From Baffinella frigidus (taxonomy: Eukaryota > Cryptophyceae > Cryptomonadales > Baffinellaceae), in NCBI GenBank assembly GCA_026770585.1, contig MU646553.1:356099-376173 (forward strand): a DNA stretch of 20,075 nt, read 5' to 3'. A program made the translations under genes and the position numbers. Positions 93 through 19,740 of this stretch are shown here, piece by piece. The notes under the pieces were generated by a model, which worked only from the letters and a program-made list of their open reading frames with translations, was not told the origin of the DNA and did not search any database. Every line of letters begins with the position of its first letter. The first letter of the stretch is position 1.

Positions 93-101
93 GTATCACC
101 T

Positions 102-1213: not shown

Positions 1214-1248
1214 ATCCCTGAACCCTGAACCGTGAACCCCAAACGCAG

Positions 1249-2290: not shown

Positions 2291-2314
2291 AGGAGGAGGC
2301 GCTTTCTTACGAGC

Positions 2315-2805: not shown

Positions 2806-2820
2806 TCGCGTTACACCCCC

Positions 2821-3228: not shown

Positions 3229-3260
3229 ACGCGGCTTAGCCGGCAGCAAGAGAGAGCTGC

Positions 3261-4112: not shown

Positions 4113-4335
4113 AATGCCTGCCGCCGGGGACGCGCACGTCAGCCTCCATGGTCTTCACAAAACCGTAACACAGGTCAGTTACTCATCAATGGCGCACACC
4201 GATGTCCGCGGGCGCGGGCGGGGGGGCGGGGAGGGGGCGACAACAGGGCGGCTTTCGGCATTACCTAGAAAGTGCAAAAAAACGAAATCTCTCGTGCCTC
4301 AACTTAAGTACCCTGTCAACTTTGGTGACACGAGT

Positions 4336-4400
4336 GGGCCCCAAAGTGGACACTAAATTTAGTATATGGGACTCCTTGGCGCCTAAAGTTGTGGCGGTAT
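4336..4400 (+). repeat. dispersed direct repeat, copy upstream of RPS2
   Basis: GGGCCCCAAAGTGGACACTA and, after a small insertion, 40 identical bases starting AGTATATGGGACTCC (4361-4400) recur at 6321-6380. The copy lies about 225-290 bp upstream of the RPS2 start codon, so it could overlap its promoter. The sequences diverge immediately after GTGGCGGTAT. Between this repeat and about 4850 I see no gene. Confidence 0.85.
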
Positions 4401-4849
4401 ATACGCAGAGCCTGTGTGGGACCACTAGCCCCAATTGCAATTGAACAGGTTATTTACCTGACAGGTCGGACCTAAAGGACGGCAATATGGGCCTACGAGT
4501 CGTAGGTGGTTGAGGGGTTCTTCTGCTCTCCTCGCGTGGTATGAGTGGCCCGCAAGGAGAGTGGTCCATACATTTTTGCCCAGTCCGGGGCAACTGTGTA
4601 TGGAATAGGCAGAGGCCCCCACGCAACGGGGTGCTCTGCGGGGAGCCATTGGGGAGTGACACGCTGTCCGGTTCGCCGGGCTTGTGCGGGGAGCTCCTTC
4701 GTGGTTTTTCCTTATGGGTAGTGGCAGTTTCTTGGGCAGGAAAAATCTGGTGCAGAACCCAGACGTTTTCCTAACCTCGCCTCAATTCTTGCACCGTGCA
4801 TTCTCACTTTCGAATCAAGTCAATAAGTGTCAAAAATAAGTGGTAATCC

Positions 4850-5084
4850 TAAAGGACCTAAAGGACCTAAACCTAAAGGATCCTGTTTAAATAAAACGAA
4901 ATAACGAAAACAACGGAAGCGCGATCCCTCATCGGGAGCGGCCCCTTGATGCAGATAAGGCGGTAGCTACCTGTCTTCTCCAGCTCGTGAGAAGGCAGTG
5001 GATAAAGTGGCGAACCCGACCGAGTTTGTTGAAGGCAAGGGCTGACACCGACAATCCTGTTTAAATAAAACGAAATAACGAAAA
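4850..5084. repeat. 31-bp direct repeat with splice-acceptor-like end, plus ACCTAAAGG units
   Basis: ATCCTGTTTAAATAAAACGA plus AATAACGAAAA is identical at 4880-4910 and 5054-5084. On the - strand each copy reads T-rich and ends TTTAAACAG|GAT, a good 3' splice site shape. A short array of CCTAAAGGA units (about 4851-4880) adjoins the left copy. Confidence 0.85.
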
Positions 5085-5097
5085 TCACAATAGGAAA

Positions 5098-5287
5098 ACA
5101 TCGTGAGAAGGAGGGGCCTGAGCTTGTCCAAGACCTCGTCAGACACGGGCACGAAGAAGGCGCGGTCGAATTGCTCCGCCTGCGTCATATCCGGGGTTCC
5201 GATTTTGTTGCAAGAGGCCACCTTGATTTCGTTTGTGTGTGTCCCGTGGACTTTTACGGCCCGTATTTTACATCCGTACCGAGTTGT
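5098..5287 (-). CDS. coding-like segment, possible exon of an unrecognised gene
   Basis: On the - strand a frame is open from about 5287 to 5098 and reads ...R-A-V-K-V-H-G-T-H-T-N-E-I-K-V, then A-S-C-N-K-I-G-T-P-D-M-T-Q-A-E-Q-F-D, then F-F-V-P-V-S-D-E-V-L-D-K-L-R-P-L-L. G/C-ending codons and an amphipathic character make it look like real protein, unlike the surrounding frames. The frame runs on without a natural end into the A/T-rich 31-bp repeat at 5054-5084. There is no ATG at its left end and no recognisable family. It may be one exon of a gene, or a relic. Confidence 0.3.
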
Positions 5288-5290
5288 TTA

Positions 5291-5324
5291 AAATAGTACC
5301 AGAGGCGCGTTTCCGGTACTATTT
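5291..5324. repeat. hairpin, 10-bp perfect arms
   Basis: AAATAGTACC (5291-5300) and GGTACTATTT (5315-5324) are perfect inverted repeats around a 14-base loop, with further A/T pairing outside. No role is evident. Confidence 0.7.
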
Positions 5325-6240
5325 AAAATCCTTGTCACGTCCTATAAGTCCATTTCAAAACGGGGAAACGGGGGAACCGTACTTCCAAAACGGACAACAA
5401 TTACCGCAAACGCTCTATTCCCTTGATTGCTCCATAGGAGCTTCCAATAGGCCACCTCAAAGTTGTTTAAATAATGACCCACAGGGGGTCCAAAATACAA
5501 CCGCCGCCCAAAACCCCACATCAGGTGAGGCCAACAGCCGACAATCATGAACCAAGGATAGAGAGGGTCGAACCTTAACAGTTTAAGGTTCTTTTTAAGC
5601 CACACATGCATACATGCAGGCGATTAAAAAGGTCCACAGGATCTTTTTGGCATGCCCCATTAAGCTCCTCTCCAGAATGTCAAACCGGGGAGGTGGAGGC
5701 ATGAGCCATTGGAAGGCGAAATGTGGTACCACCATCGCGGAATAACCACGGGGTAAATTCAACCACAGGTCGCCGGATGGAGGAGTCGGCTCCCTAAAGG
5801 AGCCTCCAAAGGAGCCTTGAAGGAGTCGACTTGAGTTGGATTGAATGACCGATCCGAGGATCGGTTAACTGATCCGACTCCTCCCTTTTCAAGAACCGCC
5901 CGGAATGATAGGTCTATCGATGTGTCCGGAGCAGTAGTTCTGTCAATCATCGTGGACCTATCAGACCTCTCCCTCTTCTTCGTCGTTTACTTCATCTGCG
6001 CCAATCTTCGGGGAACGTCCCTCGGAGACAGACTGAACGGGGTATAACATGGACCGATCATAGTCTGGTTAAGGCACGGGTTAGGCAATAACAGCGAAAC
6101 CTCTTTAATAAATTCGTGGGCCTTGGCCGGCGCGGCCTCTCTCCTCCCACGCGGGGTCACAGTAATCAGTAATCGGACGTTAAGCCCTGCGTCTCGGCCT
6201 ACCTCTCCACGTGGCGTGCAGCAGTCGTGTTTGTCAAGTT
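5325..6240. other. no gene seen
   Basis: Nothing here has a recognisable domain. On the - strand a frame from about 5868 to 5604 is open and contains F-A-F-Q-W-L-M-P-P-P-P-R-F-D-I-L-E-R-S-L, but its upstream half is low-complexity (GGAGCCTCCAAAGGAGCC repeats) and there is no family match I can make. Treated as unassigned sequence. Confidence 0.4.
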
Positions 6241-6268
6241 ATTAAACATCGCTTTTCCCCCTTTTCTA

Positions 6269-6380
6269 ATCTAGAAGTTCAATCTTGCAACTTCGAAGTT
6301 CGATTTGGCCAAGTCCTACCGGGCCCCAAAAGAGGACACTAGTATATGGGACTCCTTGGCGCCTAAAGTTGTGGCGGTAT
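6269..6380 (+). repeat. junction of two dispersed repeats
   Basis: 6269-6320 is a single arm of the foldback element at 7210-7412 (TCTAGAAGTTCAATCTTGCA and following, to GGCCAAGTCCTACC). It joins directly to the second copy of the RPS2-upstream repeat (6321-6380, GGGCCCCAAAAGAGGACACT onward). The abrupt junction suggests that one element inserted at the edge of the other. Confidence 0.75.
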
Positions 6381-6494
6381 GAACGAAGATCCTGTGACGT
6401 TGTGGGGATCTAAAACTGTAAAACTGTAAAACTGTCTTCGGGAAAGTCTTCGTCTAAAGGCCTAAAGGCTTTGGCGTTCTGGACAAGCGACAGC

Positions 6495-6935
6495 GAGGCT
6501 GGGAACTCATTAGTGGAGGCTCATTAAGCTCACTAATTCTTTTGAGTTGAGCCAATGAGCCGGCTCAACTCAACAACAACTCCCCAGCTCAGATCGGCTC
6601 AACTCAACTCAACTCAACTCAACAAGGATGAGTTGAGCCAATGATCCTCAATGAGCCTTAATGAGCACAGCCAAAATTGGCGTCGTCGTGTCCCAGTTGT
6701 ACAGCATTTCTGAAATTTTCGGCCAACCAAAAACGATTTAGTTGAAAATCTTGCTACCAAAATTTTGTACCAGGAACAGATTTTGGTACCAAAATTTGGG
6801 CCGACTTTTAGTACCGCATTCTTAGTGAGCCTTGTTGAGCCAACGGCTCAACTCAACTCCACAAGGATTCTCAAAACCATTGGATTGGCTCAACAAGGCT
6901 CAACTCAACAACAAACTAATGAGTTATGATGCTGG
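6495..6935. repeat. CTCAA/TTGAG-rich simple-repeat region
   Basis: The region is built from GGCTCAACTCAAC, GAGTTGAGCCAATGAGC and related words in both orientations, including a pure AACTC pentamer run at about 6599-6622. A perfect 16-bp palindrome, ATTTTGGTACCAAAAT, lies at 6780-6795 with a diverged ACCAAAATTTTGTACC beside it. The sequence can form many alternative stems. No coding signal. Confidence 0.7.
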
Positions 6936-7138
6936 CTCAACTCATTAAGGATAAGGTTAGTTCCCAGCCCTGGGACTCTTCGGGATCGGTCTTCGGGAAA
7001 GTCTTCGGGATCGGTCAGAGGGGCATCATCAAAGAACGCCCCTCTGCTGACCGCTCTCGAACACAGTCGGATAGCCCAAGAATTAGGGAACATGCCAAAA
7101 ATAGATCAAGTTCCCTGTTCCCCCGGAACGGGGGCTTG

Positions 7139-7436
7139 TAACGAAACACGCAGCCAAAGCGGTGTGAGGGCGGGCACAGGGTGAAAAACTTAGATCTGTT
7201 CCCCTTGTAGAGTCAATGTGGTAGGACTTGGCCAAATCGAACTTCGAAGTTACGAAGATGCGAACTTCTAGATGGACCCTTTTCGACATGTAGTGTTTTA
7301 ATTCAAATTTTGCAGTACAAATCATGGTGTTTACTAATAATTACAGTCCATCTAGAAGTTCTCATCTTGCAACTTCAAAGTTCGATTTGGCCAAGTCCTA
7401 CCACATTGGCTCTAACGAAACACGCAGCCAAGGCGT
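7139..7436. mobile_element. foldback element flanked by direct repeats
   Basis: Arms of about 67 bp (7210-7276 and 7347-7412) are inverted copies with only a few mismatches: AGAGTCAATGTGGTAGGACT ... on the left and its complement ending AAGTCCTACCACATTGGCTCT on the right, around a 70-bp AT-rich loop. Direct copies of TAACGAAACACGCAGCCAA lie just outside (7139-7157 and 7413-7431). A lone arm is present at 6269-6320. The structure suits a foldback or MITE-type element; it has no coding capacity. Confidence 0.75.
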
Positions 7437-7502
7437 GGTAGCTGTGGTACGCCAACTGAAAAGTTGAGGGTCTTGTGAAATCAGACGACATCATACATCA
7501 AC

Positions 7503-7680
7503 AGTTTAGGGTTTAGGGTTCAGGGTTCAGGGTGGAAAGTAAACCAAAGTTGAGGATTTGGGTTGTATGCCATCTGGGGGGAGGGTTTTGTGAATTCAGT
7601 CAAAGGTTTGAGGCAAGGTTTAGGGTTAGGGGTTCAAAGTTTAGGGTATAGGTATCGAAGGTTAGGGCTGAGGGTTGAGA
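7503..7680. repeat. telomere-like heptamer tract (TTTAGGG sense)
   Basis: TTTAGGG, TTCAGGG and TTGAGGG words on the + strand, interrupted by unrelated sequence. It resembles intron filler of the TBC gene, which hints at, but does not prove, a - strand gene here. Confidence 0.6.
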
Positions 7681-7695
7681 GATGAATCACGTGTA

Positions 7696-7800
7696 CGCGT
7701 TGTAATTGTCGTGTGCCAGATTCACCAAATTCATCAAGTCCTTGTAAATTCGGGAACAACGGCGCGTTGTTCCTTTTGTACCTAAACACGCACCCAAAAA
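7696..7800 (-). pseudogene. possible exon fragment, F-G-C-V-F-R-Y-K family
   Basis: The - strand reads F-F-G-C-V-F-R-Y-K at about 7774-7800. A frame-shifted continuation, R-I-Y-K-D-L-M-N-L-V-N-L-A-H-D-N-Y-N-A-Y, reaches a GTGATT donor-like site near 7696. Two further copies of the F-G-C-V-F-R-Y-like motif occur on the same strand at 7139-7163 and 7412-7436. A 9-bp-arm inverted repeat, GGAACAACG/CGTTGTTCC (7753-7773), interrupts the frame. Looks like a triplicated coding scrap; family unknown. Confidence 0.25.
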
Positions 7801-8270
7801 ATGAGATACGCTTTCCCTGCCCCAGGCTCAAGAGAAGAGAGAGGATTAATCGGGAGTGCATGAAACCGCATTATGGAAGCGCCCCAGGGCGGACGCAGAC
7901 CCCGGGCTGGGGGGCGTCCTGACCCCACGCACCAGTCTGGAGGTGGGTGCTGGTTAGTTTTGGAGCTCGCAAGGCGCGCCAGCCGCGGGTTTGGGCCTCC
8001 ACTGGCGCGGACTTGGGCTGACAGGCAAAATGGCGCTCTGCAAGTGACGTTTTGGTCAGCCGTCGCGCGACGCAACTCCGGGCGGCCAGGATTTTTCCCT
8101 GCGCGGGCCCGCACGCGCAACCTGTGCTGGTCTGCAGCCGCTGGGTTGCAAAATCTGTGTGTCTCAAGCTGGCCAGAATGTTTCTCCAGAGAAGTTCCGA
8201 TTGTCTAGGTGCTGTACACGCACACTTGACGGCGGACGGAACCTGCTAGTGCAGCTGTACCACGAAAATA
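7801..8270. other. GC-rich stretch, no gene seen
   Basis: Open frames on both strands overlap here (for example 7873-8208 + and 7782-8120 -), as expected by chance in GC-rich DNA. None carries a motif I recognise, splice-site context or a convincing start. Confidence 0.4.
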
Positions 8271-8273
8271 AGT

Positions 8274-8478
8274 AGGCGACCCCTCCTAGGACCCTGCCAT
8301 GGGCCTATCCATAGCCCTACGGTGGTCCTAGGGGGCGGCGCGGCTCCTTATGAGCGAGTTAACCCTGTACAGGGGCACCTTGCATTTATGAACAGGCGCC
8401 CCCAATAGGACCACCGTAGGGTCGTAGATAGGCCTACATGAGGGCGCGAGTCCCTAAATTTGATGTGACCCTGTAGTA
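8274..8478. mobile_element. two adjoining foldback elements, CTCATAAG family
   Basis: Element 1 (about 8274-8379) runs from AATAAGTAGGCGACCCCTCC through CCTAGGACCCTG to CTCCTTATGAGCGAGTTAAC and CCTGTAC. Element 2 (about 8376-8478) begins with the same GTAC (GTACAGGGGCACC...) and contains AGGACCACCGTAGGGTCGTA. They share a TAC-containing boundary, as if one inserted at the end of the other. Confidence 0.65.
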
Positions 8479-8644
8479 GAGACCTTAACATGTTTTTTTG
8501 CTGACGTGGGCAGCATGCACATGCCTCCCCACGGAGGCTAGCATTTATGCAGTGGAGATGAGGGCGAGAGGTGTTGCGTGTATTCGTGGGGTTGCTAGAA
8601 GGCGTATTGCGCCTTTGTCTCCGTTCGTACTCAACATGTAGAGT

Positions 8645-8860
8645 GCACATGACCTCTGTTGACCTCTCTCGGCGCCCCTGCTCAGTCACACCTGCGATGG
8701 GGGTGCACACATGGCGACCGTGTTGGTAGTAGTAAAGGTCTCTCTCACTACAGGAGTTTCCCGCGAACAAGGACACACACCGCCCCAGGATCCTACGGTA
8801 GGACAAGTCCTGGGAGCCTATGACTGTCGTAGGGGTGGTGCGTGTTCTTTTTGGTCAGTA
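8645..8860 (+). repeat. dispersed repeat, GTGTTGGTA family, long copy
   Basis: Ordered landmarks GTGCACATGACCTC, CTCTCTCGGCGCCCCTGCTC, ATGGCGACCGTGTTGGTAGT, GGTCTCTCTCACTACAGG, CGCGAACAAGGACACACACC and GTAGGGGTGGTGCGTG are shared with 17225-17440, showing a unit of at least 215 bp. Shorter copies: about 345-395, 475-500, 630-655 (-), 2821-2882 (-), 10513-10610 and 17874-17965. No protein is evident. The conserved CTCTCTC.CTGCAGG part looks like a polypyrimidine tract with AG, but that may be chance. Confidence 0.75.
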
Positions 8861-8974
8861 GCCCCTGTATGTTCTAGCCTAGGGACCCACACTCACGGTG
8901 CTGCATCGCACCCCGAATTAAGTCCATCTATGGCCCGATGCGGGGCCCTCCTAGTCTCCGTCCTAGTCTCTACC

Positions 8975-9484
8975 GTACAGGGTCACCTCGCTCATGAGGA
9001 GGCGCCCTCCCCTCTAGGACCCTACATGAGGCCTATCTGGCTACAGGGGTACCTCGCTCATAAGACAACGCCCCCCCCCTTAGCTAGGACAACCATAGGG
9101 CCCTAGGCACAGGCCTACTGTAGGGTCCTAGGGGAGGACGTTTTCTTATGAGCGAGGTACCCCTGTAGGGCCCTTCGGAGGTCCTACGGGGGGCGCGGCT
9201 CCTTATGAGCGAGGCTCCCCTCGAAATTAAGAACCCAGACCGTTTGGGGGGTCTCCGTTTTCTTAATTTAAGAATTACTCACGGTGCTGGCGCGCACCAC
9301 GAATACAGTCGATGCATCGGCCCGATACCTCTCCTAGTCGCCGTCCTAGTCTCCGCCCTACATGTATGGGCACCTCGCTCATAAGGAGGCGCACCCCCCC
9401 CAGGACCCTACAGTAGGCCTATCTACGGCCCTACGGTGGTCCTTGAGGGGGCGGCGGCTCCTTGTAAGTAGATGGTAACCCTGC
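8975..9484. mobile_element. cluster of CTCATAAG foldback elements
   Basis: The best copy is 9041-9168, with 25-bp perfect terminal inverted repeats starting CTACAGGGGTACCTCGCTCA (9041-9065 and 9144-9168) and an internal pair of TAGGACC/GGTCCTA-type stems. A left-end-like fragment (8975-9040) and a right-end-like fragment (about 9170-9232) flank it. Another diverged full copy is at about 9358-9484. A single unit of the 45-bp hairpin family (TCCGTTTTCTTAATTTAAGA) sits between at about 9242-9275. Nested or serial insertion is likely. Confidence 0.75.
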
Positions 9485-9645
9485 CACTCGGGTGGAGTAC
9501 GAATCATTCACGACCCCCACATTCTGGGGGCCACCTGATCAATTGTGCACTAGCACAGGCCTTAGCGTCAACTACCTCTACGCAAGTTGCACACAGAGAC
9601 TTGCAGTCCACCGAGTGGTAGACCCCGTCATACTCCGTCCTGACG

Positions 9646-12600
9646 CTACAGCCCGCAGACGGGGAAGGGCGAAGTGAGGATGTCCGACTTTTCGGAGTAG
9701 CGCATTTTCGCGCGCTGCGCCGCCGCCAGCTCCTCCCTGCGCGCCGCCAGGTCCTGATGCGGCGGGATGCAGTTTATTGACAGGCAAAATCCAGAATGTC
9801 GCCTGGAGTGTGAAGGATACTGCATGTACAGGGCATCCTCGCTTCGGTGTTTCGGTGTTTGGGGTTCGGGGTTTGGGTTTCAGATTTCAGGTGTTGGGTT
9901 GTGGTTTCGCATGCATGGTTCACAGGCAGCGACCTCTATCTCTGTCTCACAATCTATTTGGGCTCACCAATTCGGACTCGCCCGGGCTCTTTCCTGCTCC
10001 AAAGTTGACGAATTTGTACCGCAGACCCACATGTCAACTTGAAAATAGAAGGTCAACTCGAGTGAGGCAGAGCGAAGACCTAGCTCTGCCTGGCTTTTAT
10101 TCTGGCTCGTCCTGAAAAGGATTTAAGAGAAGAAATCCAGTACAAAAGGGCGAATAGAAAGCCTTCAGGACGAGCCAGAATACAACTCAGGCTGAGCTAG
10201 AAGACCTTCAGAGGCCGGACTTGCGTGAACGTGACGCGCATCAGCGTTCCTGGTTTCGGGCTTAGGTTTAGGGTCTGGTTTCGGGTTTCGGGGCAGGATT
10301 CAGGGTTTGGGGTTTGGAGTTTAGGGTTCAAGGTTTAGGGTTCAGGGTTTAGGGTTTAGGGTTTAGGGTTTAGGGTTTAGGGTTTAGGGTTTGAGGTTGA
10401 GGGTTTAGGTTTCAGTTGAGGGTTTAGGTTTCAGTTGAGGAGACGCAGGGCGGCACAGACTTACGCCGGACTCACGACCTAACCGCCCTTGGCTTACGCT
10501 TGTACACAACGTGTAGAGTACACACCATCTCTCTCGGCACCCCTGCTCAGACACAGCCTCGGTGGGGAAGCATGCATGGCGGCCGTGTTGGTATTCAAGC
10601 GAGTTTCTCGGTGGCAGAGAAAGGGGGCATAATTGATGCAGGTCGGTCTCTTACCTGGGTCGATGCGCTTGCCTCGCAGCAGCGTGAGAGGCCCGTCTTT
10701 CGGCTTCAACGCCCCAAGGAGGTCCTCCTGGTTTTGGGTTCAAGGTTTAGGGTTTGGGGTTTGGGGTTTGGGGTTTAGGGTTTAGGGTTTAGGGTTTGGG
10801 GTTTAGGGTTTAGGGTTTAGGGTTGAGGGTCCAAGGTTTGGGGTTTAGGGTTTAGGGTTTAGGGTTTAGGGTTTAGGGTTTAGGGTTTAGGGTTTAGGGT
10901 TCAGGATTTAGGGTTCAGGGTTCAGGATTCAGGGTTCAGGGTTCTGGATTTTGGGATACAATCCGGGATTCGGGTTTCTGAAGGTCATAAACGCATTGTA
11001 TTGTTGTATTAACATTTCTATTTCCGGACTTGGGGAGGGCATGCGACGATCCCCCCTTCAGGGTATAGGTTCAGGGTTCAGGGTTTGGGGTTTGGGGTTT
11101 GGGGTTTGGGGTTTGGGGTTTGGGGTTTGGGGTTTGGGGTTTGGGGTTAGGTTTTAGGGATTGTGGTAAAGGGTTTGGGGTTCAGGGTGCGTTTGGCAGG
11201 TTTGGGGTGTAGTGATAAGTGTTTCTGGACCTGGGACGGGCACGCGAGGATCTTGGGCTGCAGAAGCTTGAGCAGCCCTACTGCTGTCCGGAGCAACACG
11301 TCACTCGCGCCATCCTGCACAGGAGGCTTTCGGGTTCAGATTGTAGAGTGCATGGTTTGAGGTTTAGGGTTTAAGGTTTACGGATTGGGAACATGAGCTT
11401 GAAGAGGCTAACTGACGTCCGGAGATGCACGTCACTCGCGTCGTCCTGTAACGCGTCGAGGGTTTGAGGCTTAGAGTTTAGAGTGCATGGTTTTGAGGTG
11501 TAGGGTCTAAGGTTTAGAGATTCCTGTAACGCGGCGGGGGTCTAGAGACGCGATTTGGGAGAAAGGCCAGGGTCAGCCTCGCATGGATCGACTACATGTG
11601 TGACACCGTCGCGAGGCAATTTGTTTTTCGAGTGACGCGATCGCAAACCGTGGGGTCGTGTGTGCACACTCACAACGCCAGAGTCTTGGAGGGGCTTGAT
11701 TCAATCGGGGGCGTCAAATAATACGCGTATGGACTTTTGAGAGCCACTGCACTGATGGAAATTTGACTTTTGGCGACTCCTTCCAAGACTCTGGCGTGGC
11801 AGGGACTCGGTGCGCCACTTCCTGGTTCCAACCCTTCCGGACGGCTGAACCCGTGTCCAGTCGACAACGACGCAAACAAGCGGGAAAAGTTGACTGTTCG
11901 TCACAGAACCGTCCACGTTTACAAACATTACCAGAAACGTCAACTTTTACGAACTTCCGATCGTGGTACGGGGGGGCTCGTAACCTGGAGGAGGATGTCG
12001 AAAAGGCGCAGTACGCAGTCCTGGGATTAGGGTTCAGGATTGAGAGTTTGGGGTTTAGGTTTTAGGGTTTAGTGTGTAGGGTTGAGGTTTTGGTGTTTTG
12101 AGTTGGGGGGTGAGGGTTTAGTGTTTAGGGTTCAGAGTTTACGACGCAGTTCTACGTCCGCGGGGTTGAGGGTTGGGGTTCTGGGGTCTAGGGTTCAGGT
12201 TTAGGGTTTCGGTTTCAGGGTTTGGGGTTCAGGGTTTAGGGTTTGGGGTTAAGGGTTCAGGGTTCATCGTACGTCCGCAGGTTTCGTGTTTCGTGTTTCT
12301 GTTTCAGGATTCAGGGTTCAGGGTTCAGGGTTTGGGGGTATGGTTTTGGGTGTAGGGTATAGGGTTTCTCGGCCACGAGAGGGAGTTGATGAAAATGGAG
12401 AGCAGACAGTATGTCGAAGCCAACGTCAGGTCGAGAGAGAGGCTCCGCATCATAAACCGATTTGACTGATCATATGTCCGTTCGCAGACTGTTGACTGAA
12501 ATCTTGCTCGTTTGCAGACTCAAGCGTTGCAGACCCCAGAGTGGGGTGAATCACCCACGGGAGAGAGTTGATGAAGATGCAGAGGAGCCAGTTTGTCGAG

Positions 12601-15548
12601 ACGAACGTCAGGTCCAGAGAGAGGCTCCGCATCTTCTCTGCCAACTCTGGGATCTGCAGCCAAGAATATTTTCAGCCACCTATGTCTTTTTCAGTGCTGG
12701 GGTCCGTTATGGGGCACTGGTTTGACCCCTGGGAAGCTTCTTCAGGACTGAAAGCATATCCCACAACCAGACGCCTTGCAATTCTACGAAATGTCTGGGT
12801 GGGCTGTGTCCTCATAGTTGGCCTCCCTTGAGCCGTGTACGGCTGCCTTGAGCCGTTGAACCCTACACCCTAGGAAACGTGAGTATAGGTTTTGGTGTTT
12901 GGGGTTCCAGTAGAGGGCCCGGGGGTTTTTTTTTTCACCCACGGGAGGGAGTTGATTACGCCTCACCTATGTTTCGACGAGTAGAGGGTAGGCTTTAGCA
13001 CCCTACACCTTACACCCTGAACCCTGAACCCGAAACCCGAAACCCTGAATGCTAAACCCTGCACCCTAACCGCAACCTCTGTTTCGACGAGAGACTCGAG
13101 CAGCATTTGATCGACCCTTAGTCCCGCCAGCGATCTGTGGTAGTACCCTGCCGTTGGGCTTAGGGTTTAGGGCTTAGGGTTTGGGGTTCAGGGTGTATGG
13201 TTTGGGGTTTAGGGTTGAGGCTTTAGGGGTCAGGGTTTAGGGTTGAGGGGTTAAGGTATGTGGCAGTATCCTCCCGTTGGGGCTGTGGACGTTTTGTTTT
13301 GCCTGGAAAAACGTCCTCGACGAGGGTTACGAGCACGCATGACGCCGCCTCCTCGTCACACACTTGCACTTGCAGCAATGTCTAACACCCCACTCCAAAT
13401 CTCCACCTCAACCTGAGTAAAACTGCGCTCGCCATAAAAGCAATTTAGATTGCCTTTTTTACCGGGGGTTCTTTTCTAAATGTGTTGTTTTATGGAGAGA
13501 TGAGTTTTAGATAGGCAGGGGTAGAACCTGGAAGGACGTCCTCGACGAGGGTGACGAGGACCCAGAACGCCGCCTCTTCATCGCGGAGTTGTAGCAGGAG
13601 CACCGCTGCGACGAAGTTCATGCTCTGGCAATACCTGCTTTGCGGGTTAGGGCTTACTTCTTCTTCTTCTTTATTACTCTCGATACAGGTCCTAGAAAGG
13701 CCCTTTAGCCTTGAGTTGGGTTAGGGGTTACACCGGGCTTCCAAGGAAGTTTCGAACAGATATCTGGGTGACATCTCAGCTGATGAGATGTGTTCGTACC
13801 GAGCAATTCCTAATTGGTAACACGAACATAGATGGACCGATCTGTGAAGCCCACTGCGTGGGGGGTTAGAGTTTGGCCTGGCGTGGGTTGCGGAGGAGAC
13901 GGGACGGACTCTGCGTAGGCAGCGAGCAAGTTCCGCAGCATATCCCTCCCAACCTCCTCCTGGTGTCTGTGCCGGGGCTGCACGCAGTGCTCGGCACCCC
14001 CACCCCGGGCTGCACCTTTCTGCGCCGCAGGCTCCCCCCCTCGAAAACGCCCCTCGCTAAGAGATCCTTCTTTGGGGCTGCGGCGCGACTTTCCCGGGCC
14101 GGTGCAACTCGGTTTATAGCAGTAACTCGGGTGAGGCACGGGCGCGGCAGCAACCCGACGGTGGGGTTGAAGCTGGCGTACGCGGCGAGCACGTTCCGCA
14201 GCCTGTCCCTCCCCGCCCCCGCCCCGAAGAAATCCTCCTCCCCATCCGGACCCCTCTGGCCAGGGAGGGTGCGCCCCAGGTCGCGCTCTATCTCCGCGAG
14301 GCATGTCGAGGCGTCTGGAGGCCGCCTGGATGCGGGTGTTTGGTGTTTGGTGTTAGCGCGTGTGGTTTGGGGTGTAGGATAAGTGAAAGATTCTGTGAAA
14401 AATGTCACGGGGGAGAGGCTGAGAACATGTGCGAGACCATCGCAGCGCAGGTGCGCCCTTGCGCCTCCTCGGATCCCATGCATACACGCATCCTATCGCA
14501 TAGATGCGTGCACTCTCCCGTAGATATCGTGCATGAGAGAGGTTCAGAACCTGTGCGAGACCATGGCAGCGTAGGTGCGCCCGTGCGCCTCCGCCGCGCG
14601 CCGCCGCGCTGTCCCCGACCATGCCCTGCAAGGGGGTTGGATTTTAGGGTTTGGGGTTTAGGGTTCGGGTTTTCAGCGTTGTCACCTCCCAAGAAATATG
14701 GAGCCGTCAGCCCAATGCCCAATGGAAAAGCTGCAATTCCCTATGGGAGCTAGGAGCTCCCTTTGGGAAGAGCGGCGCTGAGGAGGGGGCAGGCCAGGCC
14801 AGCCCTGGAATTGCAGCCGTTGGCGTCATTTCTGAAAGGAAAGCTCCCGTTTCCTGGTACGGCCTCACTCGGGTCGACTGACTACTGTCAAGTTGACATT
14901 CTGGATCTGCTGTTCAAATCCGTCTCGTCAACTTCGGCGCGAAACATGCCCCGGTCCCACCAAAATGCTCACACCGAATCAGCCGTTGAGATTCGCTGTG
15001 GGGGCGCAGGACCAGAGGAGGGGGCGGAAGCGCGGCGGCCAGCCTTTCTGTCGCACGATCTGTGTCAGCTTCTCGGAGACTGGCCGCTCCTGCTCCTCCA
15101 TGCCCCCCCCCTCCCCCTGCATGCCCCCTTTCCCCCCCTGCTGTGGGTTTGGGAATTTGGGCGGAGGGGTTGGAGATTAGAGCTTCTCGGGAACTGGCCT
15201 TCTCCCGTCTAGGTTAGGGATAAGAGTGGGGAAAAGGGTTGCGGGATGTGGTTGTTGGTTGGTTCAGGGATCAGGAAACATTAGCGGCCATCCGATCAAA
15301 AATTGCACAGGACGGTGCAGGGTCAGAGGGTTCAGCGTGTAGGTTTCAGCGCGCTTTCGACTGGGTAATCTCCTTTGAAAAGTCCCCAACGTGGCGTGTT
15401 CTGAAAGGGCCTCAGGCTCGAGTTCCCGAAGGTCTCTTCGAAAAATGGTCAGAGACTCAGAGGAAAGAACCTGCGCCTCGAGAATAGCAGCGCGACACTG
15501 TGCCTCCAGCTCCTCCTCCGGCTTCCCCGCTCCCGCGAGCGCCCCCAT
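9646..15548 (-). CDS. TBC-domain Rab GTPase-activating protein, 12 exons
   Basis: Exons on the - strand: 15548-15471, 15140-15013, 14625-14551, 14325-14155, 13634-13528, 13147-13077, 12653-12555, 12020-11985, 11314-11231, 10727-10655, 10251-10223, 9753-9646 (stop TAG 9648-9646). All introns are GT...AG, all phases agree, and the sum is 1059 nt = 352 residues. TBC proteins speed GTP hydrolysis by Rab GTPases in membrane traffic. Landmarks: K-G-W-P-P-R-F-R-P-L-L-W-A-W-S-G (58-73); I-E-R-D-L-G-R-T, the IxxDxxR arginine finger (R112); N-P-T-V-G-Y-C-Q-S-M-N-F, glutamine finger Q154; F-W-V-L-V-T-L-V-E-D-V-L-P-G-Y-Y (174-189); W-L-L-C-I-F-I-N-S-L-P-W (232-243); R-L-F-D-I-L-L (248-254); D-G-A-S-D-V-L-L-R (256-264); E-D-L-L-G-A-L-K (284-291). 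The C-terminus has a short charged helix, L-A-A-R-R-E-E-L-A. Exons 1 and 11 are least certain (exon 11 is 29 nt with a weak CAA|GTCCGG donor); exon 1 is chosen for its ATG and phase fit. Extra 5' exons are possible. Both catalytic residues are present, so the protein should be active. Confidence 0.88.
9938..10042 (+). repeat. dispersed repeat in TBC intron 11
   Basis: CTCTGTCTCA, TTTGGGCTCACCAAT, CGGGCTCTTTC, AAGTTGACGAATTTGTACC and TGTCAACTT occur in the same order as at 16757-16866 and, for the right half, at about 17078-17120. It lies within an intron and does not overlap an exon. Confidence 0.65.
10081..10199. repeat. long inverted repeat in TBC intron 11
   Basis: ATTCTGGCTCGTCCTGAA (10099-10116) and its exact complement TTCAGGACGAGCCAGAAT (10164-10181) bound a 47-bp loop. 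The pairing extends outward imperfectly to TAGCTCTGCCTG (10081-10092) and CAGGCTGAGCTA (10188-10199). It could be a small MITE-like insertion. The word CAGGCAGAGCTAGG recurs at about 17156. Confidence 0.8.
10254..10438. repeat. telomere-like tract, TBC intron 10
   Basis: Degenerate then perfect TTTAGGG repeats; about 10346-10392 is an unbroken run. On the coding (-) strand this reads CCCTAAA and ends right at the exon-11 acceptor (AAACCAG). Confidence 0.9.
10513..10610 (+). repeat. GTGTTGGTA dispersed repeat inside TBC intron 10
   Basis: Contains CTCTCTCGGCACCCCTGCTC, AGACACAGCCTCGGTGGGGA and ATGGCGGCCGTGTTGGTATT, matching 17225 and 17874. It shows that this family inserts into introns. Confidence 0.7.
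10731..11160. repeat. telomere-like tracts, TBC intron 9, with homogenised variant
   Basis: 10731-10955 is TTTAGGG/TTTGGGG/TTCAGGG, including about eight perfect TTTAGGG units near 10840-10899. 11076-11148 is an almost pure run of about ten GGTTTGG heptamers, a variant that has been locally amplified. The 10955-11060 stretch between them is unrelated sequence without coding signal. Confidence 0.9.
11335..11537 (-). pseudogene. decayed copy of TBC exon 9 within telomere-like repeats
   Basis: On the - strand, 11451-11393 reads D-D-A-S-D-V-H-L-R-T-S-V-S-L-F-K-L-M against D-G-A-S-D-V-L-L-R-T-A-V-G-L-L-K-L-L in the intact exon (11314-11231). It keeps the frame for about 18 codons but has lost the 3' half and the donor. 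A smaller scrap (CCTGTAACGCGGCG, 11524-11537) repeats its 5' edge. TTTAGGG-type words surround both. Confidence 0.8.
12027..12365. repeat. telomere-like tract, TBC intron 7
   Basis: TTTAGGG, TTCAGGG and TTTGGGG words fill most of the intron and end at the exon-8 acceptor (CCCTAATCCCAG on the coding strand). Two short islands, TACGTCCGCGG (about 12152) and TACGTCCGCAGG (about 12270), may be heavily decayed copies of exon 8 edges; this is weak. Confidence 0.75.
12379..12456 (-). pseudogene. decayed copy of TBC exon 7
   Basis: Reads M-R-S-L-S-L-D-L-T-L-A-S-T-Y-C-L-L-S-I-F-I-N-S-L-S-W versus M-R-S-L-S-L-D-L-T-F-V-S-T-N-W-L-L-C-I-F-I-N-S-L-P-W in exon 7. The frame is open and 26 codons align without a gap. 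The 5' part and acceptor are missing and the donor is changed (GGCCGA in place of GGTGAT). The invariant-type N-W is lost, arguing against use. Confidence 0.85.
12937..12985 (-). pseudogene. fused scraps of TBC exons 6 and 7
   Basis: On the - strand, L-L-V-E-T-stop with a following GTGAGG (12985-12962) matches the 3' end of exon 6. It runs straight into ATCAACTCCCTCCCGTGGGTGA (split here as ATCAACTCCC and TCCCGTGGGTGA), the 3' end of exon 7 with its donor. Two exon 3' ends from opposite sides of an intron are thus joined within 50 bp. Confidence 0.7.
12990..13074. repeat. telomere-like tract in reversed polarity, TBC intron 6
   Basis: CACCCTACACC, CCCTGAACCCTGAACCCGAAA and CTAAACCCTGCACCCTAACC on the + strand, opposite to the other tracts in this gene. 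It adjoins the exon 6 donor instead of an acceptor. Confidence 0.85.
13157..13285 (-). repeat. telomere-like tract and a scrap of TBC exon 6, intron 5
   Basis: TTTAGGG/TTTGGGG words at 13157-13256 sit next to the exon 6 acceptor. At 13285-13255 the coding strand reads CCCCAACGGGAGGATACTGC, a mutated copy of the exon 6 acceptor and first codons (CCCAACGGCAGGGTACTAC). Confidence 0.75.
13301..13376 (-). pseudogene. decayed copy of TBC exon 5
   Basis: Reads V-C-D-E-E-A-A-S-C-V-L-V-T-L-V-E-D-V-F-P-G versus L-R-D-E-E-A-A-F-W-V-L-V-T-L-V-E-D-V-L-P-G in exon 5. The glutamine-finger half of the exon and the acceptor are missing, and the conserved F-W has become S-C. Confidence 0.85.
13657..13673 (+). 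repeat. short TTC microsatellite
   Basis: CTTCTTCTTCTTCTT within TBC intron 4; GAA on the coding strand. Confidence 0.9.
13889..13975 (-). pseudogene. decayed copy of TBC exon 4
   Basis: Reads G-R-D-M-L-R-N-L-L-A-A-Y-A-E-S-V-P versus G-R-D-R-L-R-N-V-L-A-A-Y-A-S-F-N-P in exon 4. The arginine-finger part is absent. The rest of 13976-14150 is GC-rich intron. Confidence 0.8.
14418..14482 (-). pseudogene. decayed copy of TBC exon 3
   Basis: The coding strand reads GCATGGGATCCGAGGAGGCG onward, ending TGCGATGGTCTCGCACATGTTC. It parallels exon 3 from GCATGGTCGGGGACAGCGCG to TGCCATGGTCTCGCACAGGTTC. A deletion breaks the frame and the donor CAG|GT has become CATGT. Confidence 0.8.
14631..14672. repeat. 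telomere-like tract, TBC intron 2
   Basis: GGGGTTGGATTTTAGGGTTT and following TTTGGGG/TTTAGGG words abut the exon 3 acceptor; the coding strand reads CCCTAAACCCC...CCCTTGCAG. Confidence 0.85.
15176..15215 (-). pseudogene. scrap of TBC exon 2
   Basis: GAGCTTCTCGGGAACTGGCC (15180-15199) repeats CAGCTTCTCGGAGACTGGCC inside exon 2 (15067-15086). Only about 30 bp align, upstream of the intact exon in gene direction. Confidence 0.6.
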
Positions 15549-16750
15549 CGGCGGCGTCTGTCGCCAGCTCTTTTTTCAGAAAGACGCCTACACCAGCACA
15601 TAAAGCACGCCATCGCACGGAGTCTGTGTGGCGGAGATGGAGAGGGGGCGGATGGGCCTCATCTGTACCATCCACGAGTTCTGGAGTTCCCCTCCCCACG
15701 ACCGGGTGTTTTGCTTTTGGCTGTTGCGCCTGAGGGCAGCAAGAGAGGCATGGACCTGGTGCTTGTCCCGCGCCCTCATATCTGCGGCGTCGATCCGTCC
15801 ACGACTCTCCAGGGCTTCGCCTGCGGTGGGCCCACGTCCTCTGTCTTCAAAACACCCGCCCAATTTGGTGGACCTGGGGCCTGGATTCTGGTACAAAACA
15901 AGGGGTTCAAGTCGGGTTTTAAAAAGCCCTAAAAGTGTCAAGATAAGACTGGCGCAAAGAACCAAAAAAATCTGGATCTGAGAGCCAGGGGTACGGGCCG
16001 TCCTTTTGGCCCTCTTGCGTTTCCCCAAACACGAAACTCATGTAGCATCTTTGACCGATCGGCATGGCCGAGCTTGTGCTTCGATTTTTGCAAGGAACTT
16101 TGCGATAGAGCGCCGACGTGGTGCCTTGAGAGGAATTGGGAGGCCGGGGGCCGCTTCGAAGCAAAGACCTAGCCCTCCTGGCAGTAGTCGCTGACTTTAC
16201 CCTCCCCAAACAGCTATTCGTCCTTCCTCGTTCATCAGTGTTTGGCCGTTCATCGGTGGGGGGGGTTCTGGGCCCCGATTTGTCGCTCCGAGACCCAAGA
16301 TGGCGATGCCTGACGTGCCAGGAACAAAAGGGGCCGCCGGTCGTTCGTAGAGAGGGGGGGGTCTTTGAGGCGTTCGAGTGGCATGTCGGAGCCTACATAC
16401 ACTCCACGACGAAGGTCTGACTATCAAACCGATGTCATCCCTCCCGCGTCTTGATTCGCCAGCTGTTGGTCTGGCACGGCGGCCGCCAAAAAAATAGAGA
16501 AAAGGAGCGGCCAGGCAGCAGGGCCCAGGGGGTCGTGTGCCAGCAAAAGGTTTGCCTCGGCCAACCCCGATGTCGGGAACCGTATCGGTGGACATACAAA
16601 GAGAGGTTTTTATGTTGACCGACACTGGTTTCTGGATGGGGCGGCATAGAGGGGGCCGATCTGCGACAGAGGGAAGGAGGCTTCCCTGGCCAGGGAACAG
16701 TCTCACTGTTCGCCGCGTGTGGAAAGTCTCTATACCACGGTTGCCTGCAT
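15549..16750. other. no confident gene
   Basis: Several long frames overlap on both strands. On the - strand, 15817-15752 (acceptor CCACCGCAG; E-A-L-E-S-R-G-R-I-D-A-A-D-M-R-A-R-D-K-H-Q; then GTCCAT) has exon-like borders and could be an upstream exon of the TBC gene, but I cannot link it by phase. The other frames have no motif I recognise. Confidence 0.3.
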
Positions 16751-16756
16751 CGATCA

Positions 16757-17125
16757 TTATGTGGTCCTCTGTCTCAGTCGATTTGGTCTCACCAATCTGG
16801 TGATATCGGGCTCTTTTTCGCCCCGAAGTTGGCGGATTGGTACCACATGCCCAGTTTGTCAACTTAAGCATAGCCAAAAAGCCCAACGGAGGCAGGGCTA
16901 AGATTTGGTGGTACCAATCGTTCCTGATTTAGGTACCGTCCTGGTACAACACCTACCTGGTTCAGTCAACCGCTTCGGACTCTTGTCGAGACGGGGCTCG
17001 GGGAGTGGCTTTACAGACAGACACTCTGGAGCGATTGCTAGCTGTGCCTCAGTCGGGTTGACTGATTTATGTAACGCCAAAAGTTGCCGGATTTGTACCA
17101 CGAACCCGGAAAATCAGCTGCCTGT
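16757..17125 (+). repeat. dispersed repeat, two partial copies
   Basis: 16757-16866 (CTCTGTCTCAGTCGATTTGG, CTCACCAATCTGG, CGGGCTCTTT, AAGTTGGCGGATTGGTACCA, TTGTCAACTT) matches 9938-10042. 17078-17120 repeats the right part (AAAAGTTGCCGGATTTGTAC). Around 17100-17180, GCTGCCTGTCTCCTCATCTT and GAGGAGACCAGATTGGCTCAGGCAG can pair as a hairpin. Confidence 0.6.
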
Positions 17126-17224
17126 CTCCTCATCTTGAGGAGACCAGATTGGCTCAGGCAGAGCTAGGATTAGGCCTGGGAATGATGCGAGTTGAGGTTG
17201 GCATCTCTTTCGAAGCTTGCTCTA

Positions 17225-17440
17225 GATCCTACTCAGACACAGCCTCGGCGGGGGGGCATGCATGGCAGCCGCGTTGGTAGTGATAACGGTCTCTCTCTCT
17301 CTCCAGGTGAATCTCGCGAAGAGGGACACGCACCGCTCCAGGGTCCTAGGAAGGGGCTAGCAATGGCAGCCCAAGACCACCGTAGGGGTGGTGCGTGCGG
17401 GAGTCTAGGACCACCGTAGGGTTGGTGTGTGTTCTTAGTG
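17225..17440 (+). repeat. dispersed repeat, GTGTTGGTA family, long copy
   Basis: Co-linear with 8645-8860 (CTCAGACACAGCCTCGGCGG, CATGGCAGCCGCGTTGGTAG, GGTCTCTCTCTCTC, CTCGCGAAGAGGGACACGCA, CCGTAGGGGTGGTGCGTG). The last GTAGGG.TGGTG word is itself duplicated at about 17382 and 17415. Confidence 0.75.
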
Positions 17441-17565
17441 GTTTCTCTCTCACTGCAGGGGGAGCGCGGCCGCTAAAGACGCTCCAAAAGTTGACAATGC
17501 GAGCGAAAGTCACAAAACGCCTCGCTCCGAAGCCTCTGCACGCGATCGATCCCCGAGGTGCTGCC

Positions 17566-17860
17566 TGCAACCCTAAACCCGTAACCCTAAACCCTAGGCA
17601 CTGAACCTTAAAACATAACCCGTGAACCCTAGACCCCAAACCCTAGACCCTAAACTCCCAACCCCAAATCCCAAACCCCAAACCTTAAAACCTAAACCCT
17701 AGACCCTGGACCCTAGACCCTAAACCCCAGACCCTAGACCCTAGATCCTGGGCCCTAGACCCTAGAACCTGGATCCTAGACCCTAAACCGACAGCCCCAT
17801 GCCCCACCCCCACCCCCAAAATTCAAACTCCAACCACAAACTTCAAACCCTTAACCGCAA
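17566..17860. repeat. telomere-like tract (CCCTAAA sense)
   Basis: Degenerate CCCTAAA, CCCTAGA and CCCCAAA words. CCCTAGACCCTAGA-type variants dominate 17690-17790. No exon was recognised at its right end, where a further GTGTTGGTA repeat begins at 17874. Confidence 0.9.
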
Positions 17861-17873
17861 ATACATTATAGCA

Positions 17874-17965
17874 CATGACCTCTCTCGGCGCCCCTGCTCC
17901 GACACATCCTCGGTGGGGATGCATACATGGCGGCCGTGTTGGCAGTATTAGAGTTCTCTCTTATT
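17874..17965 (+). repeat. dispersed repeat, GTGTTGGTA family
   Basis: Contains ACCTCTCTCGGCGCCCCTGC, CACATCCTCGGTGGGGATGC and ATGGCGGCCGTGTTGGCAGT. From here to about 18110 no gene is seen. Confidence 0.75.
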
Positions 17966-18121
17966 AATCAAGGTCCCTTTCAGTTGAGTTTCAAGGCAGC
18001 GTTGACTTTTCAGCTATTTCGGCTCTGATAGAGGTCTCTGATAGAGTTCTCATTGGGCAGGGGCGGAGCGGCGTCGGATCTCGCGGGGGGCGGTCTTTTG
18101 GGCCTCGATGACGGGTCAGTG

Positions 18122-18262
18122 GGGTGGAGGGCTGAGAGTTGAGGGTTCAGGGTTGAGGGTTGAGGGTTCAGGGTTCAGGGTTGAAGGATGGGGGTTGAGG
18201 GTCTGGGTGCAGGGTGCAGGGTGCAGGGTGCAGGGTGCAGGGTGCAGGGTGTAGGGTTTAGA
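18122..18262. repeat. telomere-like tract with GGGTGCA array
   Basis: TTGAGGG/TTCAGGG words are followed by about seven uninterrupted GGGTGCA heptamers (18205-18252) and then TTTAGAGGG. Polarity is opposite to the CCCTAAA tracts on either side (17566-17860 and from 18331). Confidence 0.9.
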
Positions 18263-18356
18263 GGGAGTTAACACCAGGCACTCCGAAACATGTCCCCAAA
18301 TTGGTTTCTTTTGGTACCGGGACACACCACACCCCAAACCCCAAACCCTAAACTAG

Positions 18357-18407
18357 ACGCTGATGGAGATGCTGGTGCGACTCGGGCCGGAGGAGATTGA
18401 ATCTTAG
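18357..18407 (+). pseudogene. F-box exon copy 1, truncated
   Basis: After CCCCAAACCCTAAACTAG the frame reads T-L-M-E-M-L-V-R-L-G-P-E-E-I-E-S-stop (TAG 18405-18407). The match to copy 3 ends after E-E-I, so the second half of the F-box is missing. A CCCTAAA tract lies directly before it. Confidence 0.75.
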
Positions 18408-18528
18408 GGGTGGAGTTTTTGCCATGCAAAAGCCACATGTAGAGGCTGGGATAGCACACGGCTTGAGGTTCAATGCCAAACCCAAAACCCGTGTGAGATT
18501 GATCCCCAAATCCTCAACCCCAAAACAG

Positions 18529-18571
18529 GACGTTGCTTGAGATTCTGGTACGGCTCGGGCCGGCAGAGCTG
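18529..18571 (+). pseudogene. F-box exon copy 2, truncated
   Basis: An intact acceptor (CCCCAAAACAG) precedes G + T-L-L-E-I-L-V-R-L-G-P-A-E-L, after which similarity to copy 3 stops. It has the same start phase as copy 3, and no donor is preserved. Confidence 0.75.
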
Positions 18572-18644
18572 CATCACCTGTTTTCATTTTGAGTTGTGAT
18601 AACGCTATCTCGAGGCTCAGATCGCAAAACAACCCGTACGGCAG

Positions 18645-19535
18645 GACGCTGCTGGAGATTCTGGTGCGGCTGGGCCCCGAGGAGATTGCGTGCACTGCCA
18701 CCGCCTGCCGCGCCTTCGCTCTCATGTGAGGGGTTAGCGTTTGGGGGCTAGGGGTTGGTCTGTCCCGATACCCAACGAGCTTAGCGAGAGAGAGAGAGAG
18801 AAAGAGACATACACATAGAGACAAAGTCAGAGACAGCGAGAGAGGCACAGCGAGAGAGGAAGAGATGGAGAGAGAGTGATGAAGCGCGGTTCTGGTGCGG
18901 CTGGGTCCGGAGGAGATTGCGTGCACAGCCACCGCCTGCCGCGCCTTCGCTCTCATGTGAGCTTATTGTCCAATTGATTTTTGTTCTGGTAACGCTTTTG
19001 CTTTACTATTGCTAGTGTGGTCCAGCTGCGCAGCAATTTTTGTTACCCAAAATATTGGAATTGAACGTTTTCCCTGATGCAGGTGTCGGAGCGAATGGCT
19101 GTGGAGGCAACTGTGCGCCCTCAGGTGAAGCCTTTTCAACAATCCCTGAGGGGGACTTGCTTGACAAGGTTCAGGTCAATTCCAAGGGTCGGGACTCAGG
19201 GTCAAGGCGCAGGGTCATCTCAGATGTTCTCAACACTCTGAACCCTGAACAACTGACTCTAAACCCTAAACCCTGAACCCTAAACCCCATTCTCGATTCT
19301 GAGGGGCACCTCTGATTGTCGCAAATCTCTGAATCCTGAACCGTAGACTCTAGAACCTAAAGCCTAAACCCTAAGCCTATTCTCTAGAGACCCTAAACCC
19401 GAAACCTGTAGACCCCAAACCATCAACTATAAGCCCCATTCTCTACCCTTAACCGTACAATGGGTTGGCAGGGGGATCCGAAGCGAGGAGGAATGCGGCA
19501 AGATCTGGCGCGCGGCCTTCACGTGTCTCCGCAAG
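18645..19535 (+). CDS. F-box protein, partial, three exons
   Basis: Exons 18645-18725, 19083-19124 and 19472-19535, with GCAG acceptors (GGCAG, GATGCAG, TTGGCAG) and GTGAGG, GTGAAG and GTGCAC donors. Each of the first two exons ends two bases into a codon and each following exon supplies the third. The product reads T-L-L-E-I-L-V-R-L-G-P-E-E-I, then A-C-T-A-T-A-C-R-A-F-A-L-M, then C-R-S-E-W-L-W-R-Q-L-C-A-L-R, then G-I-R-S-E-E-E-C-G-K-I-W-R-A-A-F. This is the F-box pattern (leucine-rich helix, L-x-P-E-E, C-R-x-F, then S-x-x-L-W-R-x-L-C) and the W-R-x-x-F that often follows. F-box proteins bind SKP1 and bring substrates to SCF ubiquitin ligases. The substrate-binding region would lie beyond the window, and the start codon was not found. 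Copy 4 (18892-18956) could replace the first exon. Confidence 0.75.
18785..18879 (+). repeat. purine-rich GA/GACA simple repeat
   Basis: GAGAGAGAGAGAGAGAAAGA and GAGACA/GCGAGA variants fill the interval between F-box exon copies 3 and 4. Low complexity, no coding meaning. Confidence 0.9.
18885..18956 (+). pseudogene. F-box exon copy 4, 5' truncated, donor intact
   Basis: L-V-R-L-G-P-E-E-I-A-C-T-A-T-A-C-R-A-F-A-L followed by AT|GTGAGC matches copy 3 over about 65 bp with only a few mismatches, so this duplication is recent. The L-L-E-I start is lost. A weak acceptor, GATGAAG (ends 18884), would give the same phase, leaving open use as an alternative exon. Confidence 0.6.
19235..19465. repeat. 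telomere-like tract, F-box gene intron
   Basis: CCCTGAAC, CCCTAAACCCTGAACC and CCCTAAGCC words, mixed with unrelated islands, extend to shortly before the acceptor of the exon at 19472. Confidence 0.85.
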
Positions 19536-19545
19536 GTGCACTGCA

Positions 19546-19740
19546 TCCCGAAACCCGAAACCCGAAACCCGAAACCCTAAACCCTCAATCCCAAACCCTA
19601 ACCCTAAACCCTAAATCCTGAACCCTAAACCCTAAACCCTAAACCCTGAACCCTAAACCCTGAACCCTAAACCCTGGACCCTAAACCCTAGACCCTAAAC
19701 CCTAATCCCTAAACCCTAATCCCTAAACCCCGAACACTAG
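19546..19740. repeat. telomere-like tract (CCCTAAA), F-box gene
   Basis: Begins with a CCCGAAA run (about 19547-19575), then CCCTAAA with CCCTGAA, CCCTAGA and CCCTAAT variants. It starts about 10 bp after the AAG|GTGCAC donor, so nearly the whole following intron is repeat. A further weaker tract covers 19785-19865. Confidence 0.9.

Follow-up and report, generated by a model that had tools for sequence, protein, structure and literature searches.

Telomere-type repeat tracts, mostly C-rich on the coding strand, in introns of the cryptophyte alga Baffinella

The window analysed here, a stretch of 20,075 nucleotides (54.6% GC), comes from Baffinella, a cryptophyte and Arctic single-celled alga, and holds a RabGAP-TBC gene, an F-box gene, an RPS2 gene, and tracts of telomere-like heptamers (Table 1). 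The assembly comprises 382,457,362 bases in 1,364 contigs; among 20 random 10-kb stretches of it, drawn to sample intergenic DNA, 14 are entirely N, which may be gaps or withheld sequence, and six contain some letters. Six scaffold ends were checked for telomere arrays: three are N and none of the other three has a clean array. The published genome of Baffinella CCMP2293 is given as 534.5 Mb, with 41.1% repeats and 53.9% GC, in the passages of its report on genome content, which put the assembly at six times the 87.2 Mb of Guillardia theta (PMC9756366); the main text of that paper does not contain the words "telomer" or "intron". Searches of the window with Rfam (gathering threshold) and ARAGORN gave no matches. 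The RPS2 gene (3264-4112, minus strand) is intronless, and its protein clusters, among the 120 relatives listed, with 16 sequences, with a short insertion after FLG in 16 of 16. By eye, the window also shows several copies of a palindrome-like repeat at 1553-1690 and 8275-9480 (CTCATAAG...CCCCTAGGACC...GGTCCTA...GGGG...CTTATGAGCGAGGTACCC), perhaps a MITE family, and a dispersed short element, recognised by an exact or near match to GGCGGCCGTGTTGGTA, at about 480, 8711, 10570, 17260, and 17925, which occurs inside intron 11 of the TBC gene too.

Table 1. Positions of the genes, exons, introns, and tracts described in the window.
Feature	Position	Strand	Description
C-rich tract	1214..1248	+	precedes exon at 1249, a near copy of the exon start at 1008
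RabGAP-TBC gene	9646..15779	-	13 exons, 12 introns; exact spliced mapping of public protein P0121
TBC exons 1-5	15779-15756, 15557-15471, 15140-15013, 14625-14551, 14325-14155	-	P0121 mapping
TBC exons 6-10	13634-13528, 13147-13077, 12653-12555, 12020-11985, 11314-11231	-	P0121 mapping
TBC exons 11-13	10727-10655, 10249-10206, 9753-9646	-	P0121 mapping
TBC intron 2	15141..15470	-	short C-rich tract at end, 4 nt from exon
TBC intron 3	14626..15012	-	acceptor tract CCCGAACCCTAAACCCCAAACCCTAAAATCC
TBC intron 5	13635..14154	-	ends in CCCTAACCCGCAAAGCAG; decayed partial copy of exon 5 inside
TBC intron 6	13148..13527	-	acceptor C-rich tract between two copies of acceptor and exon start
TBC intron 7	12654..13076	-	exception: sense G-rich tract after donor, between two copies of donor region
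TBC intron 8	12021..12554	-	22 sense AACCC; tract reaches 9 nt from exon
TBC intron 9	11315..11984	-	short tracts between repeated acceptor sequence (CGCGTTACAGGA)
TBC intron 10	10728..11230	-	39 sense AACCC; ends in CCCTAAACCTTGAACCCAAAACCAG
TBC intron 11	10250..10654	-	14 sense AACCC; ends in CCTAAGCCCGAAACCAG
TBC intron 12	9754..10205	-	4 sense AACCC; 108 nt between the last one and the exon
C-rich telomere-like tract	17575..17849	+	upstream of F-box exons
Two short C-rich tracts	18336..18528	+	precede acceptors of F-box exon copies (starting near 18357 and 18529)
F-box exon copy	18645..18725	+	own spliced model; PF12937 F-box-like match at 6.3e-07
C-rich tracts	19240..19471	+	in intron preceding exon at 19472
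C-rich tract, 180 nt	19551..19730	+	between exon at 19472 and copy of its end

The structure of the TBC gene was obtained by an exact-match spliced search with P0121, the public rab-GTPase-TBC domain-containing protein of Baffinella frigidus, all 368 residues of which map exactly; all 12 introns have GT-AG ends. A spliced model of our own, which uses another copy of exon 10 and lacks exons 1-3 and 12, matches PF00566 at 1.6e-43. As the initial annotation had stated, the introns contain telomere-like repeats that are mostly C-rich on the coding strand: over all 12, the sense strand holds 108 AACCC against eight GGGTT. The same annotation had placed a tract near the acceptor in at least eight of eleven introns; with the P0121 mapping the count is 8 of 12. 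In introns 2, 3, 5, 6, 8, 9, and 10, the last sense AACCC lies 4, 8, 9, 15, 9, 17, and 8 nt from the exon, respectively, and the end of intron 11 (CCCGAAACCAG / ...CCTAAGCCCGAAACCAG|) brings the acceptor-proximal tracts from 7 to 8 of 12. Not counted is intron 4, whose end is a degenerate tract of CACCAAACACC, and introns 1, 7, and 12 have no tract at the acceptor. The G-rich tract of intron 7 has six GGGTT and begins 17 nt past the donor.

Several introns also hold non-tract sequence and decayed exon copies, so that the tract often makes up just a part of a larger intron. The end of exon 6 recurs as a copy in intron 6, as does most of exon 8 (79 of 99 nt) in intron 8. Over the TBC gene, such copies (score of at least 15) were found in 5 of 24 adjacent exon-intron pairs versus 0 of 132 non-adjacent ones. 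Running from 11445 down to 11380, intron 9 also carries an unused near-copy of exon 10 (DDASDVHLRTSVSLFKLMF); the public model takes the other copy, and this one is possibly a mutually exclusive or dying exon.

C-rich tracts had also been reported on the opposite genomic strand, before the F-box exon copies and the exon at 19472, and they are present there, with one exception in the F-box gene (18143-18176, G-rich on the sense strand). The tract described before the exon at 1249 is likewise found, and the junction reads CCCCAAACGCAG|GAAAGTG. Under the tract definition of the kinesin sample described below, which misses the short tract at 1214-1248, positions 1-9640 hold two short tracts (40 nt) and positions 9646-14624 hold 11 (574 nt).

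Some introns consist of nothing else. We took 14 three-kilobase stretches around (TTTAGGG)3 sites on contig 1 and listed the tract flanks in these, in earlier loci, and in the window (113 tracts in all); in the part of this list that was read, the tract spans the whole of several introns, donor to acceptor. One is a 205-bp intron of a CCA-adding-enzyme gene (locus L044), tract from end to end, across which the frame reads ...TTCACCATCAACGCCATG|GTATACCTAAACCC...CCCGAAACCAG|GCGGTGCATG...; the match to PolyA_pol is 93.4 bits unspliced and 114.7 bits spliced. Two homologues, P0136 (identity 88%, covering 88% of the query) and P0138 from Guillardia theta, are contiguous across this join (TINAM|AV), and P0137 is 100% identical up to the join, then reads into the tract (VYLNPKP) and stops. 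P0136, which belongs to an ENA contig of 3032 bases, thus shows no interruption at the site of the 205-bp tract intron of Baffinella, and by sequence the two form a candidate intron presence/absence pair. Two introns of a NAP gene (L029), 156 and 171 bp long, are tract introns, the first of which by our reading would need a GC donor (GC-AG), and, again by reading, the gene has two further introns without tract; its match to NAP goes from 3.3e-05 in a single frame to 4.4e-21 spliced. Tract introns are thus a large class and not all introns. The GT-AG ends of all 12 TBC introns and the exact joining of the frame, which P0136 and P0138 match at the PolyA_pol join, are those of U2-type introns, and homology together with the public gene model suggests that the tract introns are removed by splicing. 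A kinesin exon at G000:C2:1537825-1537923 lies within an open frame of 2343 aa; tract variants free of stops (LNPKPQT-type repeats) could be annotated as spuriously long proteins.

To avoid selecting loci by their repeats, we chose a further set by kinesin homology. There are 45 kinesin exon matches genome-wide, and 24 stretches on 18 contigs, picked by spacing and length, touch 30 of them. These stretches contain 14 sense C-rich tracts and one sense G-rich tract; base shuffles predict 0.035 sense C-rich tracts. Eight stretches, on eight different contigs, have only sense C-rich tracts and none has only sense G-rich ones (two-sided p 0.008), while L051 has one of each. The claim that polarity follows gene direction thus holds in a sample independent of the genes for which it was made. 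Fifteen of the 24 stretches are without a tract by the definition used, so many introns do without one; at L062, that definition missed a degenerate G-rich sequence past the donor. By eye, C-rich tracts directly follow the donors at L053, L056, L065, and L068. In the genes examined (TBC, F-box, kinesin), exons seem to be commonly duplicated on a local scale. At L050, L051, L056, and L065, single exons or exon pieces have tandem near-copies within a few hundred bases.

In the whole assembly, perfect (TTTAGGG)3 occurs at 53,120 overlapping positions (25,832 + 27,288) and its reversed control at 27 (13 + 14). This contrast and the kinesin shuffles exclude chance or base composition as the source of the tracts. 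An assembly artefact is unlikely, because the public gene model and the homologues join across the tracts. The 21-mer AACCCTAAACCCTAAACCAGG had no match in the viral and prokaryote collections. In 118 uninterrupted runs we counted 874 units, 706 of them with a length of 7 nt; CCCTAAA (288), CCCCAAA (120), CCCTGAA (74), and CCCTCAA (58) are the most frequent. Of 756 pairs of neighbouring units, 311 are identical, against 232 expected and a maximum of 262 in 2,000 permutations, which points to local slippage or duplication. The 6,022 bases of these runs contain 25 AG and 29 GT in the C orientation versus 571 AG and 886 GT in the G orientation, a contrast that is partly built in, as the runs were selected with a C-rich unit pattern, yet it is also the contrast that the spliceosome would meet. 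With so few AG or GT, the C-rich strand is plausible from its sequence as an acceptor context.

The left and right flanks of the same tract share a repeat (score of at least 12) in 11 of 72 tracts, compared with 0.52 expected from flanks of other loci. The 11 repeats are imperfect and 14-41 nt long, four come from the window and two from L044, and several include CAG|G with the exon start. At tract L036, the repeat GCAGGCACGACNGT has one mismatch and directly adjoins the tract on both sides. Outside these 11, shorter repeats spanning AG|G were seen by eye at whole-tract introns: TCAAGGTG at L033, AAGGT at L046, and AGGCA at L029.

Counted genome-wide by orientation, the proximity to acceptors proposed in the initial annotation did not emerge: CAGGH, 2-10 nt past a perfect tract, is commoner after G-rich tracts (1,992) than after C-rich ones (1,456, out of 2,960 CANGH), in a comparison that is probably confounded. 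Of the first 100 G-orientation matches listed, 73 have in-register spacing (lengths 21 or 28) and are probably TTCAGG(G) repeat variants. Because such spacing is expected of the common TTCAGGG variant, the count cannot separate acceptors from repeat variants, and it gives no support to the splicing model. Among the first 100 C-orientation matches listed, 47 are of length 27, which corresponds to a tract with the end ...AAACCAGG. A comparison of the two flanks of 82 tracts gave weak differences, both for CAG[GA] within 14 nt (24 vs 12; discordant 20 vs 8, p 0.036) and for YAGGH within 25 nt (22 vs 12; discordant 20 vs 10, p 0.099), and in seven kinesin tracts the result was 1 vs 2. A better internal control than the CAGGH count is the tally by eye of the letters that follow AACCCTAAACCCTAAACCA: in the first 100 of 624 genome matches, these are GG (56), TG (39), CG (3), and AG (2), and TG is one change from the CCCTGAA unit, whereas GG is not.

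The analysis shows real genes, exact exon joins, a polarity found from the genes first, the composition of the tracts, flank duplication above chance, and a non-random order of units. The account that we consider rather probable is that telomere-type repeats seeded or swelled many of these spliceosomal introns and then grew by slippage and local duplication, their polarity being kept mainly by splicing selection. Repeats of TTTAGGG and its variants would lodge at or near a splice junction and enlarge through slippage and local tandem duplication, copying neighbouring pieces of exon as well. Cryptic splice sites, branch-like words, and the exclusion of AG upstream of 3' splice sites belong to the general background of splicing. 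The C-rich strand in RNA would be tolerated, because it has nearly no AG or GT; it would also supply pyrimidines and branch-like CTAAAC or CTGAAC words, and its tract could reach the acceptor, often ending ...AAACC|AG. In the other orientation, the typical unit would carry TTTAG, a cryptic acceptor (TTTAG|G), and GGTTT, a cryptic donor, and G-rich tracts would for this reason be removed except near donors. The surviving ones (intron 7, L062) are near the donor and upstream of the expected branch point, which is consistent with this model though not predicted by it. Selection rather than the insertion process would then set the polarity, the tract may act in branch-point or U2AF recognition or as a polypyrimidine tract, and telomerase is a plausible source of the repeats. 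The insertion process could itself be strand-biased. The C-rich tracts adjacent to donors at the four kinesin loci are unexplained by a rule at the 3' splice site alone. Intron 7 and L044 had prompted the notion of an outward telomere-cap polarity, G-rich away from both ends of every exon, like that of gene fragments capped with telomeres; we rejected it because those same four kinesin donors are followed by sense C-rich tracts.

In a second account, staggered breaks of exons at AG|G were healed by telomerase with a few telomeric repeats and rejoined. This would give a new intron in one step, since the duplicated AG|GT supplies both splice sites, and the outcome would be introner-like with no transposon. 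The excess of flank repeats, the L036 repeat that adjoins its tract on both sides, and the AG|G-spanning repeats of L033, L046, and L029 speak for it, and passages of PMC2246262 propose telomerase insertion at breaks, at times with target-site duplication, for mammals. Yet the 11 flank repeats, imperfect and 14-41 nt long, look more like local duplication, and AG|G on both sides is expected from the splice-site consensus anyway. P0136, without a tract between TINAM and AV, may derive from RNA; on the other hand, its frame seems to enter a later intron after AYR, and its source is perhaps an intron-free allele. The growth of tracts by slippage or duplication, and the non-tract sequence and decayed exon copies in several introns, also speak against a single insertion event as a full account. 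We regard telomerase-seeded gain of this kind as possible but doubtful.

The clustering of variant units (311 of 756 identical neighbours vs 232) and the position of tracts at acceptors of conserved genes would also suit a simple-repeat expansion, in which the C-rich, CTAA-containing acceptor region of old introns slipped into heptamer arrays that merely resemble telomeres. We find this unlikely: 706 of the 874 units keep a period of 7, the most frequent one (288) is CCCTAAA exactly, perfect (TTTAGGG)3 occurs at 53,120 positions, and slippages arising separately at very many sites would not arrive at a single telomere-type unit without a common source. The genome-wide spread and the flank duplication, located at splice junctions in the genes examined, would also follow from a family of introners or non-autonomous DNA transposons with an interior that is telomere-like by coincidence, and introner families with duplications of 3-9 bp are described in parts of PMC9860276. 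We hold it to be very improbable, as the flanks listed show by eye no conserved non-repeat border common to different tracts, and length and content vary between sites. Scarcely credible to us are telo-box-like regulatory elements under selection for transcription: passages of PMC3022908 report that Arabidopsis telo boxes are more frequent in the first two introns, but here there are long arrays at internal acceptors rather than single boxes in 5' regions.

Several known systems resemble the tract introns of Baffinella in part. Introners, in the sections of Gozashti et al. 2022 (PMC9860276) that describe them, share the many intron copies in one genome and, in some families, terminal direct repeats; they differ in having a copied consensus where we see tandem heptamer arrays. 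Many dispersed similar introns in one genome are what we found, with tract introns in TBC, NAP, PolyA_pol, and kinesin genes. The methods passages of that survey state that low-complexity families were filtered out, so telomere-repeat introns may have escaped it; its main text lacks "telomer", "cryptophy", and "Baffinella". Interstitial telomeric sequences at double-strand breaks likewise consist of short telomeric arrays located within chromosomes, some with a duplicated target site, but the passages on them in Nergadze et al. 2007 (PMC2246262) do not treat them as introns as such and give no link to gene strand or acceptor. The tracts studied here are tandem telomere-type units away from chromosome ends, although TTTAGGG is telomere-type by likeness of sequence and may not be the host's telomere repeat. 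The telo boxes of Arabidopsis and rice have the same heptamer and occur in introns, but according to portions of PMC3022908 they are short motifs, mainly in 5' regions, unlike the arrays described above; its main text nowhere uses "splice", "strand", or "orientation". Direct repeats of 4-30 bp around intron borders are reported in parts of Rogers and Bendich 2025 (PMC11782384), which in those parts do not mention telomere-repeat introns. Among the matches listed in the literature searched, we found no description of introns made of telomeric repeats, and within that literature the class is possibly undescribed so far.

Where spliceosomal introns come from has long been debated, and transposons (introners) are the best documented recent source. 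The tract-filled introns suggest that DNA of the kind found at chromosome ends can become intron DNA, and tracts at splice junctions, together with the gene-strand rule in the sampled genes, make a transposon-free route directly testable. These introns would also be a clean natural test of the exclusion of AG upstream of 3' splice sites. A wider proposal, which we put forward tentatively and think unlikely, is that telomerase-type repair makes new spliceosomal introns genome-wide, an insertion at AG|G being at once spliceable if the C-rich strand is in the RNA. If this were true, the maintenance of chromosome ends would act as a transposon-free intron generator. For Baffinella itself, the tracts may help to explain a genome of 534.5 Mb compared with 87.2 Mb in Guillardia theta.
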